A stretch of 56,369 bases of DNA from Acidobacteriaceae bacterium (GTDB lineage: Bacteria; Acidobacteriota; Terriglobia; Terriglobales; Acidobacteriaceae). Numbering within the stretch: position 1 is the stretch's first letter; every line of letters begins with the position of its first letter. Below are positions 4,671-54,665 of this stretch, one piece after another. The stretch lies in NCBI GenBank assembly GCA_003152695.1, contig PMAT01000036.1, positions 1-56,369 on the forward strand, given 5' to 3'. The translations under genes were made by a program, and so were the position numbers. Below the pieces are notes generated by a model, which worked only from the letters and a program-made list of their open reading frames with translations, had not been told where the DNA came from and searched no databases.

Positions 4671-4986
4671 ACTCCCGATCTTTGTGACGCCGAAACATAG
4701 CGAACACGGCTGACGGATGAACCACCCACAATCGGAACAGACCAAAGAGCGTAGGTAGAGCAACTGACAGTAAGAAGGCCGCCGTCGCCCCCGCCACGGC
4801 CCAGAGAAAACTTTTAGCGATCCAGAGCAACGTGAATCCTGCTAACCACAGCACAATAGAAATCGCCAATACAGTGATAACGAATATCTGCTGACCTCTT
4901 GGAGTGTCGCTATCGAGCGGTTGGCCGCCACACCAGGAGTAAAGCAGTGCGCTAAGGAGAAGCAGCACTATCGCTACCGAGATCAC
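4669..4986 (-). CDS. small membrane protein, transposon passenger
   Basis: A 105-residue hydrophobic protein with three predicted transmembrane stretches (about 1-18, 33-53, 58-84) and a basic C-terminus ending MFRRHKDRE. Its GTG start at 4986 overlaps the transposase stop by four bases (GTGA), so it is translated downstream of the transposase. The reading frame runs to the left terminal repeat. No family recognised. Confidence 0.55.
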   Translation of the reverse strand: MISVAIVLLLLSALLYSWCGGQPLDSDTPRGQQIFVITVLAISIVLWLAGFTLLWIAKSFLWAVAGATAAFLLSVALPTLFGLFRLWVVHPSAVFAMFRRHKDRE

Positions 4987-5855
4987 CTCAGCCTCTCTTT
5001 CTTGTACGGCCCGCGCTTAGTCGGAACAAAGGCCGCATCCGCCAGCATTGCAATTTCCTCCAGCGACCAAACGTGATCGCTGATTCCAGCCTGCATTGCT
5101 GGCGTGATTCTTAGGGTCTTGTGGACTCTGGCGAAATTGTAGTGCATGAAATGAAGCGCAACCATGTGCCCGTGATTCTCTAGCTTCTTGCTGAACCCAT
5201 TTGTCAGCCGTGTAAAGCGGTGCATCCCCATACGCATCGTGAGATTCTGGCGTTCAACAAAGCTGGTACTGACGTGCTTCGGGTCGGGATTCCCCATCAC
5301 GGTTTTCATATCGCAGGCGATGCAGGTCGCCGGACTGTAGCGTGATGCGTCAGGAGTCGGAGCGCCAAAAATCTTGTGCAATTGCGCGTAGTCCACTTCC
5401 GTTCCGAACGCATCTTCGATGGCCTGTAGATAAGGTCTGTGAGCATCTGTGGTGATCTGCGGACGGCCATTGATGCGGTCTGCGGCATTCCGCATAAAGT
5501 TGTATGCCGAGTGCTTGCTGCGATCGCCAACGTAGTACGTGACGCAGAGCTTCGTATCAGCATCAATCGCTGTCCAGGTCCACGCGTCGCCCCATCCGGC
5601 CTTTTCCTGTTCTGGCGTGACGTTCTTTTTCTTCGCGCCAACGAACGACCAAATCTCGTCACACTGCAACCGCCGAACTCGCAGATCGCCCACGTAGCTG
5701 TCGTGGTACTCAGCGCAAGCCCCGGCCAGATCAATTAAGAGCTTTGCAACCGTGTTCTTGGAAACGCCAGTCATGCGAACGGTTGAGCGGATGGAGCAAC
5801 CTTCGATTAAGCAGCTAACCACTTGCGCGCATTTATTAGTATATAACCTATTCAT
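4983..5855 (-). CDS. IS1-family-like DDE transposase
   Basis: A 290-residue transposase. The N-terminus has a helix-turn-helix (GCSIRSTVRMTGVSKNTVAKLL, about 19-40). The probable DDE triad is D66 in CDEIWSFVG, D137 in TTDAHRPY and E201 in SFVERQNLTMR; the C-terminus KTLRITPAMQAG is typical of this group. The frame is intact. Unlike classical IS1 there is no insA/insB frameshift: the whole protein is one frame. It lies inside terminal inverted repeats with toxin-antitoxin cargo. Confidence 0.85.
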   Translation of the reverse strand: MNRLYTNKCAQVVSCLIEGCSIRSTVRMTGVSKNTVAKLLIDLAGACAEYHDSYVGDLRVRRLQCDEIWSFVGAKKKNVTPEQEKAGWGDAWTWTAIDADTKLCVTYYVGDRSKHSAYNFMRNAADRINGRPQITTDAHRPYLQAIEDAFGTEVDYAQLHKIFGAPTPDASRYSPATCIACDMKTVMGNPDPKHVSTSFVERQNLTMRMGMHRFTRLTNGFSKKLENHGHMVALHFMHYNFARVHKTLRITPAMQAGISDHVWSLEEIAMLADAAFVPTKRGPYKKERLR

Positions 5856-5929
5856 AATGATGCAATTATACCAAGACGTATTAGCATATTAAGAATAAAA
5901 TAGAAGACGGGAAAATTAAAGTTTGCCGC

Positions 5930-5958
5930 TTGACATCCAAGTAGCACCGTGCTACCTT
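5930..5958 (+). promoter_or_regulatory. mqsRA promoter with overlapping palindromic operator
   Basis: A -35 TTGACA (5930-5935), a 17-base spacer and a -10 TACCTT (5953-5958). A perfect palindrome, GTAGCAC-C-GTGCTAC (5941-5955), covers the spacer and enters the -10. Transcription would begin at or within a base or two of the GTG start of mqsR (5965), giving a leaderless message. MqsA-type antitoxins repress their own promoter through palindromes, so this is the likely operator; its sequence differs from the E. coli one. Confidence 0.65.
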
Positions 5959-5964
5959 CTAAGC

Positions 5965-6258
5965 GTGCAGAAACCGAGCTATTCGTTAGCCCAAGTGAAG
6001 GGGCTTATGAAGGACGGTGGTTGGATATTGCGGGAGTCTGCCTTAGATACCGCCGTAGAACTCGGATTTGACCAGGACGATGTGTATGACTGCGTTGTCA
6101 AGCACATCGAGGAAACGCACTTTTACAAGACGATGGAGTCAGAGAAGAAAAAGGGTCTAATGCAGGATGTTTACCACATCACGTATCAAGAGCAACGCCT
6201 TTACGTGAAACTTCAGGTCAACGTCCAAGCGGTCGTAGTTTCATTCAAAGAGGCGTAA
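5965..6258 (+). CDS. mqsR: MqsR-type mRNA interferase toxin
   Basis: A 97-residue RelE-fold endoribonuclease that in E. coli cleaves mRNA at GCU-type sites. Alignment by eye with E. coli MqsR (98 aa) is strong along the whole length: SLAQVKGLMKDGG near the start, then ETHFYKTM, MQDVYHI and LYVKLQVNVQAVVVSFKEA at the end (E. coli ends VLIVSFKEK). The GTG at 5965 is chosen over the in-frame TTG at 5923 because of the length match and because the promoter lies between them. It is followed by mqsA after 13 bases. Toxin-first order is the family norm. Confidence 0.85.
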   Translation: MQKPSYSLAQVKGLMKDGGWILRESALDTAVELGFDQDDVYDCVVKHIEETHFYKTMESEKKKGLMQDVYHITYQEQRLYVKLQVNVQAVVVSFKEA

Positions 6259-6271
6259 GGGGAGGGATCAA

Positions 6272-6733
6272 ATGGACTGCGTTATTTGTGGGGGTAACGC
6301 CAAGATCGTGACAGAACAAAAGCAGGCGCGTTATCGCGGCGAGGTGGTAGAGGTTACTCAAGAACTTTACCGATGCGAGTCATGCCAAGAGGGCTTTGTG
6401 ACGCCAGAGCAGGCCGGGAACCACGTGCGCGCCGTCAAGAACGAGATTCGCAAAAAGTATGGGTTGCTCTCGCCAGAGAGAATAGTCGAGATCAGAAACA
6501 AACTCGGCTTAACCCAGGCGCAGCTTGAAGAACTCCTGAACACGGGTTCCAAGGTGGTCGTCCGGTGGGAAAGCGGCAAGGTGATACAGGGTGACAGCCA
6601 CGACACTGTGCTGCGACTACTTGAGAAGTGGCCTTCGGAATTGGAGCACGTTCGGCAAATTCAGAAACTGCGCTCACAAGAGCAAAGAGAATACGAGACG
6701 CGTGCGAGGGGGCGAGCGGCCTGCGTGGCCTAG
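6272..6733 (+). CDS. mqsA: MqsA-type antitoxin (zinc ribbon plus HTH)
   Basis: A 153-residue antitoxin with two domains. The N-terminal zinc ribbon has C3-x2-C6 and C35-x2-C38 and should bind MqsR; the C-terminal XRE-type helix-turn-helix (about 72-125, KLGLTQAQLEELLNTGSKVVVRWESGK) should bind the operator upstream of mqsR. The order and spacing match E. coli MqsA (131 aa), with an extra 20-residue basic tail. AGGGG precedes the ATG. Its TAG stop shares a CTAG palindrome with the convergent gene at 6730. Confidence 0.85.
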   Translation: MDCVICGGNAKIVTEQKQARYRGEVVEVTQELYRCESCQEGFVTPEQAGNHVRAVKNEIRKKYGLLSPERIVEIRNKLGLTQAQLEELLNTGSKVVVRWESGKVIQGDSHDTVLRLLEKWPSELEHVRQIQKLRSQEQREYETRARGRAACVA

Positions 6734-7259: not shown

Positions 7260-7313
7260 CTTATAGGTCAATTCCGGTGATTACTCTAAAATGAATCGCT
7301 AGGAACCATATTC

Positions 7314-8741
7314 ATGGACGTTCTCAAGCAACTTTTTGAGCAGCATTTCCACACCGCGGTGGAAAAGGCGGAGCCTCTGCACGGCCGTCTGGGCGGTTCC
7401 GGGCGTAGCATGGTCCGGCTGGCCAGCGATAAATTCAGCGCCATTGGCGTGCGCTACGAGGTGCGCGAAGAGAACCTGGCTTTCCTGGAATTTTCCCGGC
7501 ATTTTCGCCGCCACGGGCTGCCGGTGCCGGAAATCTATGCACAGGATTTGCCCCACGGCGCTTATCTGGAAGAAGACCTGGGCGACACGACGCTGTTTGA
7601 GTTCCTGGCGAAAAATCGGGCAGGCGAGGCCATTGCTCCCCAGGCGATTGAAGCCTATCGCAAAGTTGTGGCCGTGTTGCCGCGCTTTCAGGTCGAAGCC
7701 GGCCGCGATTTGAATTACAAGCTGTGCTATCCGCGCGCCAGTTTCGATCGCCAGTCCATCGCCTGGGACCTGAATTATTTCAAGTACTATTTTCTCCGGC
7801 TGGCCAACATTCCGTTCAACGAACAGGCGCTGGAAGTGGATTTCGGCCGCCTGACAAAATTCCTGCTGAGCGCCGCCCGCGATTACTTTCTGTATCGCGA
7901 TTTCCAATCGCGCAATGTCATGTGGCGCGACGGCAATCCATTCCTCGTGGATTACCAGGGCGGCCGCAGAGGCGCGCTGCAATACGATATCGCTTCGCTT
8001 TTGTTCGACGCCAAGGCCGACTTGCCGCCGCAGTTGCGCCAGCAATTGCTCGATCATTATCTCGACACGCTGGCCGGTTTCATCGAGCTGGATCGCGAAG
8101 TGTTTATGCGGCATTACTACGGCTACGTGTACGTTCGCGTCATGCAGGCGATGGGCGCTTATGGCTTTCGCGGATTTTATGAGCGCAAAGCGCACTTCCT
8201 GCAAAGCGTGCCGTATGCGGTCAAGAACCTGCGCTGGCTGCTGCATAACGTCGAGCTGCCCATCGCGCTGCCGGCGCTGATGGACGCGTTCCAGAGCATT
8301 CTCGGCTCCGACAAATTGCAGGGTCTGGCGCCCGGAACCGGCAATGTCACAGTGCGGGTTTGCAGTTTTTCATTTCACCGCGGCCCGCTGAAAGACGAAA
8401 CCGGACACGGCGGCGGCTTCGTTTTCGATGCGCGCAGTCTTCCTAATCCCGGACGCGAAGAGCGCTTCAAAGCTCTTACCGGCAAAGACCGGCTAGTGGC
8501 CGATTATCTGAATCAGCAAGAGAGTGTGCATCAATTCCTGGCTGGCGTCACCGCCCTAGTGGATGCCAGCGTGAGCGATTATCAGCGGCGTGGCTTTAAG
8601 AGCTTGACGGCGTCGTTTGGCTGCACTGGCGGCCAGCATCGCTCGGTCTATCTGGCGGAGCAATTGGCCAAACATTTGCGCGGCAGGGAAGGGGTGGAGG
8701 TGGTGGTGCAGCATCGTGAATTGGAGAATGTGGGCAAATGA
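7314..8741 (+). CDS. sugar kinase (AmgK-like phosphotransferase) fused to a RapZ C-terminal domain
   Basis: A 475-residue two-domain protein. Residues about 20-300 form an aminoglycoside-phosphotransferase-fold kinase: catalytic loop YRDFQSRN (194-201, with Tyr replacing the usual His of HxD) and metal-binding LVDYQGG (211-217). Residues about 345-470 match the C-terminal domain of RapZ, with the GCTGGQHRSV signature near 436-445. AmgK kinases phosphorylate MurNAc/GlcNAc at C1 in a peptidoglycan-recycling shunt, and E. coli RapZ senses GlcN6P through its C-terminal domain. The ATGA overlap with the MurU-like gene supports a shared pathway. Amino-sugar sensing by the fused domain is inference. 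Confidence 0.85.
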   Translation: MDVLKQLFEQHFHTAVEKAEPLHGRLGGSGRSMVRLASDKFSAIGVRYEVREENLAFLEFSRHFRRHGLPVPEIYAQDLPHGAYLEEDLGDTTLFEFLAKNRAGEAIAPQAIEAYRKVVAVLPRFQVEAGRDLNYKLCYPRASFDRQSIAWDLNYFKYYFLRLANIPFNEQALEVDFGRLTKFLLSAARDYFLYRDFQSRNVMWRDGNPFLVDYQGGRRGALQYDIASLLFDAKADLPPQLRQQLLDHYLDTLAGFIELDREVFMRHYYGYVYVRVMQAMGAYGFRGFYERKAHFLQSVPYAVKNLRWLLHNVELPIALPALMDAFQSILGSDKLQGLAPGTGNVTVRVCSFSFHRGPLKDETGHGGGFVFDARSLPNPGREERFKALTGKDRLVADYLNQQESVHQFLAGVTALVDASVSDYQRRGFKSLTASFGCTGGQHRSVYLAEQLAKHLRGREGVEVVVQHRELENVGK

Positions 8742-9478
8742 AAGCTATGGTCTTGGCCGCCGGCCTGGGCACGCGATTGCGGCCGCTCACCGACGATCGC
8801 CCCAAGGCGCTGGTGGAAGTTGCTGGGCGCACCATGCTGGAGATCACGCTGGCCCGCTTGCGCGCCTTTGGAATTCGCGACGTGATCGTCAATGCGCATC
8901 ACTTTGCCGGCATGATCGTCGAGTATCTGAAAGCCAACGACAACTTCGGAATGTCTGTTGAAGTCTCGCGCGAGGAGATACTGCTTGACACCGGTGGCGG
9001 CCTGAAAAATGCTGCACATTTCTTTCTGGAGAATTCCCGTGACTCGGACGAACCGTTCCTCCTGCACAATGTTGATGTCATCAGCACCATCGATTTCCCG
9101 CGCATGCTGCAGTTTCACCTTGAAAATCGGGCCCTCGCTACACTCGCGGTGCGATCGCGCAAGAGTTCTCGCTACTTGCTGTTCGACCAGCAGTTCCAAC
9201 TTTGCGGCCGGCGGTCCGGGCGCGATGGCGCGATTGAATTGGTCCGCCCTTCAGAGCAGTTGCAGGCGCTGGCGTTTTGCGGCATCCACATAATTTCTCC
9301 GCGCCTGTTTGCGAAAATGACGGAAGAGGGCGTGTTCTCCATCATCGACTGCTACCTGCGTCTGGCTGGCCGCGAAGAAAAAATTCTCGCCTTTCGGGCT
9401 GACGAATATTATTGGCGCGATCTCGGTACGCCCGACAAGGTGCTGCAAGCCGCTCAGGATCTCAAGCAAAAGCAATAA
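8738..9478 (+). CDS. MurU-like sugar-1-phosphate nucleotidyltransferase
   Basis: A 246-residue NTP-transferase. The N-terminus MKAMVLAAGLGTRLRPLT is the nucleotide-binding signature, followed by DRPKALVEVAGRTML, then the mid-protein metal site HNVDV (about 110) and the C-terminal YYWRDLGTPD. The size and the preceding kinase point to MurU (MurNAc-1-P uridylyltransferase), which converts the kinase product to UDP-MurNAc and bypasses de novo MurA/MurB. A generic glucose- or mannose-1-P nucleotidyltransferase is the alternative. The start codon overlaps the kinase stop by four bases. Confidence 0.85.
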   Translation: MKAMVLAAGLGTRLRPLTDDRPKALVEVAGRTMLEITLARLRAFGIRDVIVNAHHFAGMIVEYLKANDNFGMSVEVSREEILLDTGGGLKNAAHFFLENSRDSDEPFLLHNVDVISTIDFPRMLQFHLENRALATLAVRSRKSSRYLLFDQQFQLCGRRSGRDGAIELVRPSEQLQALAFCGIHIISPRLFAKMTEEGVFSIIDCYLRLAGREEKILAFRADEYYWRDLGTPDKVLQAAQDLKQKQ

Positions 9479-9691: not shown

Positions 9692-10957
9692 GTGTCCAGT
9701 GCGTTTCTCCGCAAGATACCTGCTTATGTCCTGCTCACCATGTTCCTCATGCCTTGGGTTTCGGCCCAGGAGAGAAGTGCGATTCCTGCCACATTGACCA
9801 TTCCCGATGGGACCCCCATCAAGCTTCGGCTTGCGGAAAGCGTTTCCTCTGCCCACGCCCGGGTTGGAGACCGCCTGGATTTTATCGTCGTGCGGGATGT
9901 GAGCGTGGAAGGTTTCAACGTTATTCCGGCGGGAACCATCGCCCACGGCTCCATCACTGGAGTTAAGGGCAAGCGGTTGCTGGGGATGGGAGGCAAGGTA
10001 ATCCTGAAACTGGATTCCGTAGAACTGATAAACGGCGAGCGGGCCGGCTTGCGAGCCCACCTGGAGGTGAGAGGACGGTCTCGTACCAAGCTGATGGCCG
10101 CTGCCATGATCGCCACGGGCTTCATCTTCCTGCCCGCTGCGCCAGTTTTCTTGCTCACCCGTGGCCACGACAGCACCGTCGTGGAGAGTACAGAGATCAC
10201 TGCGCAAATCGACGGCGCTGCCTCGCTTCTATCGGCGGGGGTACCGCGTCCGCCAGAAAATTCCTCCGAACTCGGCGAGATGATGGATTATCTGCCGCCC
10301 CGGGTCTTCAGTGGTGAGGGACGCAAGGGCGACATGCTGAACCTGGTCTTTGTCGGCCAACAGGAAGACCTGCAGCAAGCGTTCGAGCGCGCTGGTTGGG
10401 TCAAAACTGACAAATGGAAGCCGCTATTCGTCTGGCACTTGTTGCGCCATCGGACCAGCGACGCGCAGTTGCCCATGGCCAGGTTTTACTTGTTCGGAAG
10501 AGTGCAGGACTATTCGTATGCCTTGCCCGATCCTGGTGCCATCATGTCACGACGGCATCATCTTCGCATCTGGAAAACCGATTACACGGTTGACGGGATG
10601 CCCATCTGGGCGGCTGCCGCCACGCACGACGTTGCCATTGAAATCGCCAAGCGAGGACGTTTGATCAATCACAGGATCGATCCCGCGGTCGATGCCGAGC
10701 GTGATTTCGTTGGAACCGATCTGACGAATACCTTGTCGGTGAGCCGGGAGGAATATTTGCATTCCGCTGCTCCAGTTTTTCAGGCGGAAACGGCGTCCGG
10801 CGAGCCCTATCACTCCGACAGCAGAATTCTGCTCCTGGATCTCCACGAGAGTAACCCCGCTAAGGCCGGCGTGTCCGGTCAATCGTCGGCCCTGGTTCGG
10901 GCTACGCCGCAGCCTATCGCGGCCCCAGCGGAGTCGTTCCAGATAGTGCCTTTTTAA
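9692..10957 (+). CDS. secreted LssY C-terminal domain protein
   Basis: A 421-residue exported protein. Residues 1-25 are a signal peptide (hydrophobic AYVLLTMFLMPWVSA). A central region (about 30-130) resembles a small all-beta domain with G-R repeats, followed by a hydrophobic stretch near 140-155. The C-terminal part (about 215-365) matches LssY_C: LNLVFVGQQEDLQQAFERAGW, FGRVQDYSY, RRHHLRIWKT, HRIDPAVDAERDFVGTDL. The domain is found with type I secretion (LssXYZ) and phosphatase proteins; its biochemical role is unknown. Single gene. Confidence 0.8.
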   Translation: MSSAFLRKIPAYVLLTMFLMPWVSAQERSAIPATLTIPDGTPIKLRLAESVSSAHARVGDRLDFIVVRDVSVEGFNVIPAGTIAHGSITGVKGKRLLGMGGKVILKLDSVELINGERAGLRAHLEVRGRSRTKLMAAAMIATGFIFLPAAPVFLLTRGHDSTVVESTEITAQIDGAASLLSAGVPRPPENSSELGEMMDYLPPRVFSGEGRKGDMLNLVFVGQQEDLQQAFERAGWVKTDKWKPLFVWHLLRHRTSDAQLPMARFYLFGRVQDYSYALPDPGAIMSRRHHLRIWKTDYTVDGMPIWAAAATHDVAIEIAKRGRLINHRIDPAVDAERDFVGTDLTNTLSVSREEYLHSAAPVFQAETASGEPYHSDSRILLLDLHESNPAKAGVSGQSSALVRATPQPIAAPAESFQIVPF

Positions 10958-24534: not shown

Positions 24535-24690
24535 AAAGGTTGTGTCGCAAGCTCTGCCGTCCCTACGGGACTCGGTCCTATTTCCAACTCTACCCAGCGC
24601 TGAAGCGTTGGGCTAAGCTCTTTCGCCCCTTCGGGGCTGCTTTTGTGGGCTTCCACACTCTGGCATACCGATACAAGGTTTGCGACACCA
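24535..24690. repeat. MITE-like element with TGTGTCGCAA ends, copy 2
   Basis: Starts TTGTGTCGCAAGCTCTGCC and ends with TTTGCGACACC. The core GCCGTCCCTACGGGACTC, then CTACCCAGCGCT, is shared with 14319-14548. It contains a hairpin with a TGAA loop (CAGCGC-TGAA-GCGTTG). It lies between the rhomboid and M28 peptidase genes. Confidence 0.6.
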
Positions 24691-49957: not shown

Positions 49958-50153
49958 AAAGCCGACCCGCGGGGCCGTGTTCGGTGGGCCGTCAATGAAC
50001 CCGTCCTATACGGTGGGAACCCTCCGCAGCTCTTTAGGCATTTCCGCATGGCGGAACGTCGCACACCGAGCCAGATACGAGTAGAGTCCCCTGTTCATTG
50101 AGCATTGGTTCAAAAAACGGTTGCCACCAACACCAACTTTGCAGGCCGGCTTT
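49958..50153 (-). ncRNA. ssrS: 6S RNA candidate
   Basis: About 196 nt directly downstream of zapA, the classical ssrS location. The 5' end AAAGCCGGCCUGC pairs with the 3' GCGGGUCGGCUU; further in, GUGUUGGUGGC pairs with GCCCACCGAACAC and UGAACC with GGGUUCA. A large unpaired central region follows, then an apical UUCCGC-CAUG-CGGAA hairpin. The 3' half has CUGCGG...GGUUCCCACC...GGGUUCA, the wording of many 6S RNAs. A promoter lies at the right distance and a U-run ends the gene. It would bind RNA polymerase-sigma70. No covariance search was possible. Confidence 0.75.
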
Positions 50154-54489: not shown

Positions 54490-54665
54490 GTCTGAAGCCG
54501 CGCTCATTTTGTGCCGCCCCTAAAGGGGCTCAATCTCAAAATTGCAGCTTACCCACCGCTGAAGCGGTGGGCTATCTTCTTGCGTCCCGCAATACGGGAC
54601 TGGTCTCCTACCACTTCAATTTGCCAGCCACCACCAAAATCATCGCAGTTGGCAAAGGCTGTGAA
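54490..54665. repeat. hairpin cluster between rplT and pheS
   Basis: GCCCCTAAAGGGGC, CCCACCGC-TGAA-GCGGTGGG and GTCCCGCAATACGGGAC in a row. Similar modules occur in the element at 24535-24690. It occupies most of the stretch 54476-54840, which holds no gene. Confidence 0.55.

Follow-up and report, generated by a model that had tools for sequence, protein, structure and literature searches.

A two-gene unit of a soil bacterium of the Acidobacteriaceae probably returns a sugar salvaged from the cell wall to wall synthesis. Its first gene encodes an APH-type kinase fused to the C-terminal domain of RapZ (RapZ_C), and its second gene encodes a MurU-like nucleotidyltransferase. As a tentative proposal that falls only a little short of an even chance, the pair would form a compact MurNAc salvage unit made up of a RapZ_C phosphatase, a MurNAc 1-kinase and a MurU-type uridylyltransferase, that is, a variant of the AmgK–MurU route with a possibly new catalytic role for RapZ_C.

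A kinase–RapZ_C fusion gene overlaps a MurU-like gene

The analysed window comprises positions 1 to 56,369 of contig PMAT01000036.1. An open reading frame at 7314-8741 (+) encodes 475 amino acids without internal stops, and the nucleotidyltransferase gene that follows (8738-9478, +) shares 4 nt (ATGA) with its 3' end. In the fusion protein, Pfam assigns residues 50-253 to APH (56.5 bits, cut-off 23.2) and residues 346-471 to RapZ_C (120.3 bits, cut-off 27); the N-terminal Walker-type domain of RapZ (RapZ_N) was absent from the protein by Pfam. AlphaFold modelled the whole protein with a mean pLDDT of 89.8 and the C-domain alone with 93.2. The open reading frame, the two Pfam domains and NCBIfam together confirm the initial annotation of a kinase fused to a RapZ C-domain beside a MurU-like neighbour. 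The features of the unit are:

7301..7304, + strand: candidate ribosome-binding site AGGA, read from the sequence, 9 nt 5' of the start codon
7314..8741, + strand: fusion gene, 475 aa (Pfam, NCBIfam; AlphaFold model)
7314..8333, + strand: AmgK-like kinase domain, residues 1-340 (Pfam APH; fold match 3csv)
7893..7916, + strand: catalytic loop YRDFQSRN, residues 194-201, with Asp196 and Asn201 (alignment of 95 relatives)
7950..7952, + strand: putative metal-binding Asp213 in DYQGG (invariant in 95 relatives; role predicted from APH kinases)
8349..8726, + strand: RapZ_C domain, residues 346-471 (Pfam; fold match to E. coli RapZ-CTD)
8451..8453, + strand: Gly380, aligned with His190 of E. coli RapZ
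8622..8645, + strand: putative phosphate-binding loop C437-T-G-G-Q-H-R443-S444, fitting CxxGxxR(S/T) (alignment)
8738..9478, + strand: MurU-like nucleotidyltransferase, 246 aa (NTP_transferase Pfam; best NCBIfam match MurU; conserved partner in relatives)

Just upstream of the fusion gene, Pfam identified an MqsR toxin (5923-6258, +) and an MqsA antitoxin (6272-6733, +), which adjoin an IS1-family transposase (4983-5855, -). Directly downstream of the pair lies a gene for an LssY_C-domain protein (9692-10957, +). Elsewhere the window holds a 6S RNA (49960-50150, -; 58.8 bits, above the Rfam threshold) and two Acido-Lenti-1 RNA motifs (24593-24638, + and 54552-54601, +), a motif for which we know of no function.

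The fusion and its partner are found across several phyla

A survey of the distribution, as the initial annotation had proposed, revealed that the fusion is not a one-off, with the same fusion and nucleotidyltransferase present across several phyla. The kinase was found in 18 of 61 relatives in the nearer sample and in 39 of 141 genomes in a class-wide sample. A scan of a genome collection yielded at least 576 relatives, the best 80 of which include members of the Acidobacteriota, Elusimicrobia, NC10, KSB1, Neomarinimicrobiota and Bacteroidota. The nucleotidyltransferase lay within the available stretch in 98 of 103 kinase-family loci, nearly always directly downstream, and two of the five loci without it end at a contig edge. 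An assembly artefact as the source of the fusion is ruled out by intact copies in many independent genomes. Three copies (L039 in genome G003, L079 and the copy in G277) are apparently frameshifted inside the fusion, for which decay or assembly error is possible. In a tree of RapZ_C domains, a branch supported at 100/100 separates all 34 fused domains sampled from 15 domains of full-length RapZ, a topology compatible with an origin of the fusion in one event.

Records from Bacteroides and Parabacteroides in a plasmid collection also carry the fusion and nucleotidyltransferase pair (L123:5986-7416 and L124:5986-7416), labelled there 'RNase adapter RapZ' and 'nucleotidyltransferase family protein'. 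Both fusions have the kinase domain and match the RapZ model in their C-terminal part only, and the 'RNase adapter RapZ' label is probably wrong. Full-length matches in the plasmid collection numbered only four, all from Bacteroidales and typed as non-mobilizable. Among viral contigs, none of the three pattern matches encodes a relative. Five near-full-length matches in a phage collection belong to human-faecal 'Bacteriophage sp.' records without annotation; we took these as probable host DNA rather than as phage genes. Our search of the literature, which covered papers outside subscription, found no description of a kinase–RapZ_C fusion and no text containing both RapZ and AmgK.

The kinase domain and its partner resemble AmgK and MurU

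The best-matching kinase family of the fusion in NCBIfam is AmgK, with scores of 64.7 of 500 and 39.7 of 550 bits, below the equivalog cut-offs. The best family of the second gene is MurU, likewise below its cut-offs (129.4 of 250 and 109.9 of 370 bits); several further nucleotidyltransferase families match it too, its NTP_transferase Pfam score is 90.3 bits, and the signature GxGTRxxPLT...PKAL was seen in the alignment. As these scores are well under the curated cut-offs, we refer to the proteins as AmgK-like and MurU-like. No second AmgK-like protein was found elsewhere in the source genome.

The closest solved fold to the kinase domain is 3csv (Z 28.3, rmsd 2.9 Å over 306 residues), a putative aminoglycoside phosphotransferase from Silicibacter that shares the RDFxxxN loop. 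It differs from the fusion kinase in having HRD and lacking RapZ_C, with 22% identity, and its entry states no function. N-acetylhexosamine 1-kinase, an anomeric kinase, is also among the closest solved folds (Z 20.1).

The initial annotation had drawn attention to a Tyr in place of the catalytic-loop His. The substitution is real, with Tyr194 in 94 of 95 relatives and Phe in one, yet it is the family norm rather than an oddity or a defect. Arg195 is invariant in the same 95 relatives, as are the APH catalytic residues Asp196 and Asn201 and the metal residue Asp213, and the active kinase PKA also has YRD (YRDLKPEN). We therefore see no sign of lost activity in Tyr194 and reject it as the mark of a dead kinase.

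Genomic context points to MurNAc

The context of the locus points to MurNAc as the sugar. In 11 genomes of one genus, murQ is divergent from and adjacent to the fusion gene, with gaps of 201-453 bp, and in two loci (L087 and L091) murA lies beyond murQ and scores above the TIGR01072 cut-off. MurQ itself, which consumes MurNAc-6-phosphate, is absent from 10 of 18 kinase-bearing genomes compared with 2 of 43 others in the nearer sample (p=2e-5), and from 11 of 39 compared with 5 of 102 in the class-wide sample (p=3e-4); both tests ignore kinship, and the association comes from about five kinase-bearing lineages that have lost or lack MurQ. Many fusion loci have unrelated neighbours. Other conserved neighbours (a decarboxylase, an alanyl-tRNA-synthetase-like protein, RecR and GTP cyclohydrolase) were rejected as partners, being clade-specific and apparently unrelated.

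The source genome has AnmK, and MurQ was not detected in it. Four of its HAD_2 proteins were scored for MupP, two weaker HAD_2 matches (L137 and L138) being left out, and all four fell below the MupP cut-off, the best with 90.8 of 359 bits. With AnmK present and neither MurQ nor MupP detected, MurNAc-6-phosphate needs another exit in this genome. In E. coli, AmgK and MurU are reported to need the phosphatase MupP in order to use internal MurNAc-6-phosphate, and MupP is co-conserved with both in proteobacteria (PMC5371409). The source genome is thus expected to encode a phosphatase, a role for which the fused domain is a candidate, although a Gph-like HAD protein of the same genome could be an alternative dephosphorylating enzyme.

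AnmK is present in 20 of 22 fusion-bearing genomes examined, mostly from other phyla. As a marker of the fusion it fails, since nearly all relatives have AnmK and it does not separate genomes with the fusion from those without. Nor is it a strict partner, because five genomes of family f4 (G052, G212, G218, G223 and G228), together with G277, lack AnmK and keep the fused domain, which counts against the phosphatase model; as all six have MurQ, MurNAc-6-phosphate may still arise in them by another route. In one further genome of this family (G060, locus L024) the kinase gene spans 7910-8926 and the nucleotidyltransferase gene begins at 8947, which leaves no space for RapZ_C between them. This is the only class-sample genome with the kinase but with neither AnmK nor MurQ. 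As a natural deletion of RapZ_C it fits the phosphatase model, on the strength of a single genome.

The fused domain keeps a phosphatase-like loop and lacks a pocket His of RapZ

The model of the C-domain superimposes on the E. coli RapZ C-domain (5o5s) with Z 20.4 and an rmsd of 1.5 Å over 123 residues, and the two share 38% identity, the GCTGGxHRS loop, Asp182 and Arg184 (PMC5737377, PMC9841335). The fusion differs from E. coli RapZ in lacking RapZ_N and in not keeping His190, Arg238, Lys270 or the basic tail. The source genome encodes a separate full-length RapZ on another contig, which carries the only RapZ_N of the genome.

In the loop, all 94 relatives aligned there share C437, T438, G440, H442, R443 and S444, and the pattern CxxGxxR(S/T) arises in 33 of 20000 shuffled copies of the fusion protein. 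In C-domain model numbering the loop lies between strand 87-94 and helix 100-112, so that the strand ends at the Cys and the helix starts at the Arg. Across 34 fused domains, the residues equivalent to E. coli RapZ D182, R184, C247, T248, G249, H252 and R253 are kept, with one Ala at G249; the one fused copy with Ala for the first Gly of the loop (GCTAGRHR) is L054:4143-5564, a natural variant. Four of the five residues of the RapZ pocket (H190, T248, G249, H252 and R253; PMC5737377) are thus kept, and H190 is replaced by Gly in 34 of 34 fused domains, against His in 13 of 15 full-length RapZ proteins.

Several studies bear on this pocket. For GlcN6P, the RapZ-CTD of E. coli has an affinity in the nanomolar range (PMC7073468). 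Both C247A and C247S abolish the function of E. coli RapZ, His190 is needed as well, and pocket density in a GlcN6P-soaked crystal was interpreted as a chemically altered product (PMC9841335). A note from 2020 likened the pocket to the loop of Cys-dependent tyrosine phosphatases and suggested hydrolysis of GlcN6P (PMC7199280), and PMC7525490 cites phosphatase activity for the B. subtilis RapZ homologue YvcJ. The idea of a phosphatase loop in RapZ is therefore already published, and what is new here is its application to the kinase fusion. Proven phosphatase activity for any RapZ_C domain was not found in the accessible literature.

A putative three-step route from MurNAc-6-phosphate to UDP-MurNAc

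In the proposed route, AnmK would make MurNAc-6-phosphate from anhydro-MurNAc, and RapZ_C, through Cys437 and Arg443 of its CX5R loop, would dephosphorylate it to MurNAc. The kinase domain would then phosphorylate MurNAc at C1, as AmgK does, and the product of the second gene would transfer UMP from UTP to MurNAc-1-phosphate to give UDP-MurNAc, as MurU does. On this view, the fusion would do the work of two enzymes of the Pseudomonas pathway, MupP and AmgK. From sequence and genomic context we consider the kinase and transferase steps quite likely, and place the RapZ_C phosphatase step somewhat below an even chance. The AmgK–MurU-like coupling suggested by the initial annotation is supported by sequence similarity, the murQ and murA neighbours and the loss of MurQ, and is qualified by scores of both proteins that stay below the equivalog cut-offs.

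The Pseudomonas and Caulobacter AmgK–MurU systems (PMC5371407, PMC5371409, PMC13046382) likewise have an APH-type kinase beside a small nucleotidyltransferase, AnmK in the genome and MurQ often missing; the fusion differs from them in its C-terminal RapZ_C, in having YRD rather than HRD, in its scores far below the cut-offs, and in a source genome with no MupP among the four HAD_2 proteins scored. MupP, a HAD-type MurNAc-6-phosphate phosphatase (PMC5371409), catalyses the reaction proposed here for RapZ_C with an unrelated fold and chemistry.

Alternative roles for the RapZ_C domain

The main rival of the phosphatase model is a regulatory role, in which RapZ_C would carry out no chemistry and would bind an amino-sugar phosphate or a UDP-sugar to tune the kinase of an AmgK–MurU-type pair. 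We regard this as possible, at roughly the weight of one chance among three. It would account for the retention of the phosphate-pocket residues T438, G439, H442 and R443 and of RapZ_C in family f4 without AnmK, and it agrees with the affinity of the E. coli domain for GlcN6P. Against it, a site that only binds a ligand does not require Cys437 and Arg443 to be invariant, though both are present in E. coli RapZ as well, and the His190 required in E. coli (PMC9841335) is Gly in all 34 fused domains compared; a built-in GlcN6P sensor, as a form of the amino-sugar-phosphate sensing raised in the initial annotation, is accordingly not specifically supported. The other option in that annotation, a separate catalytic role of the domain, fits better because almost every copy retains the CxxGxxRS loop. 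The phosphatase model meets counterpoints of its own in the Gly at the pocket His190 position and in the lack of a tyrosine-phosphatase fold that stands out: the best such match to the C-domain is PtpB (1ywf) at Z 5.0, which is noise level, and phosphofructokinase, the nearest fold in a report on E. coli RapZ, gives a Z of only 5.3.

In a further, unlikely reading, the nucleotide sugar formed by the pair would be something other than UDP-MurNAc, such as UDP-GlcNAc, UDP-GalNAc or the precursor of a surface glycan, and RapZ_C would serve only to hold an oligomer together. The failure of both proteins to reach the AmgK and MurU cut-offs, the matches of the second gene to other nucleotidyltransferase families and the unrelated neighbours at many loci would suit such a role, whereas AmgK and MurU remain the best family matches, murQ and murA are neighbours and MurQ is lost in fusion lineages. 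We consider it very improbable that the fused domain binds RNA and so couples sugar salvage to RNA control, as RapZ does. The fold is that of the RNA-binding RapZ-CTD, and most fusions have H, K or R at the K170 position; however, R238 is Phe in all fused domains compared, K270 is mostly V or I, and the basic tail K281-R282-K283 is absent (in the window protein, the positions of K270, K281, R282 and K283 are V461, N472, V473 and G474). The separate full-length RapZ of the source genome also argues against an RNA-binding role, and B. subtilis YvcJ likewise has no RNA-binding consensus (PMC7525490).

Implications for cell-wall salvage and for RapZ

MurNAc probes have been incorporated in E. coli with the help of AmgK and MurU from Tannerella forsythia, enzymes of the same pathway (PMC13041923). 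The fusion and nucleotidyltransferase are present in Parabacteroides, which belongs to the same family as T. forsythia. If T. forsythia AmgK is itself a kinase–RapZ_C fusion, the kinase and transferase roles have already been shown in cells. We put forward, tentatively and short of probable, that the fused RapZ_C is a Cys-dependent MurNAc-6-phosphate phosphatase, so that in many phyla with no MupP recognised the MupP and AmgK steps would be carried out by one polypeptide. The domain with which RapZ binds RNA would then be related to a sugar-phosphate phosphatase. If true, this would fill a gap, as we found no recognised MurNAc-6-phosphate phosphatase for the MurU salvage route outside the proteobacteria. 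The invariant Cys of RapZ, found essential in E. coli but without an explanation there (PMC9841335), would gain a chemical role as well.
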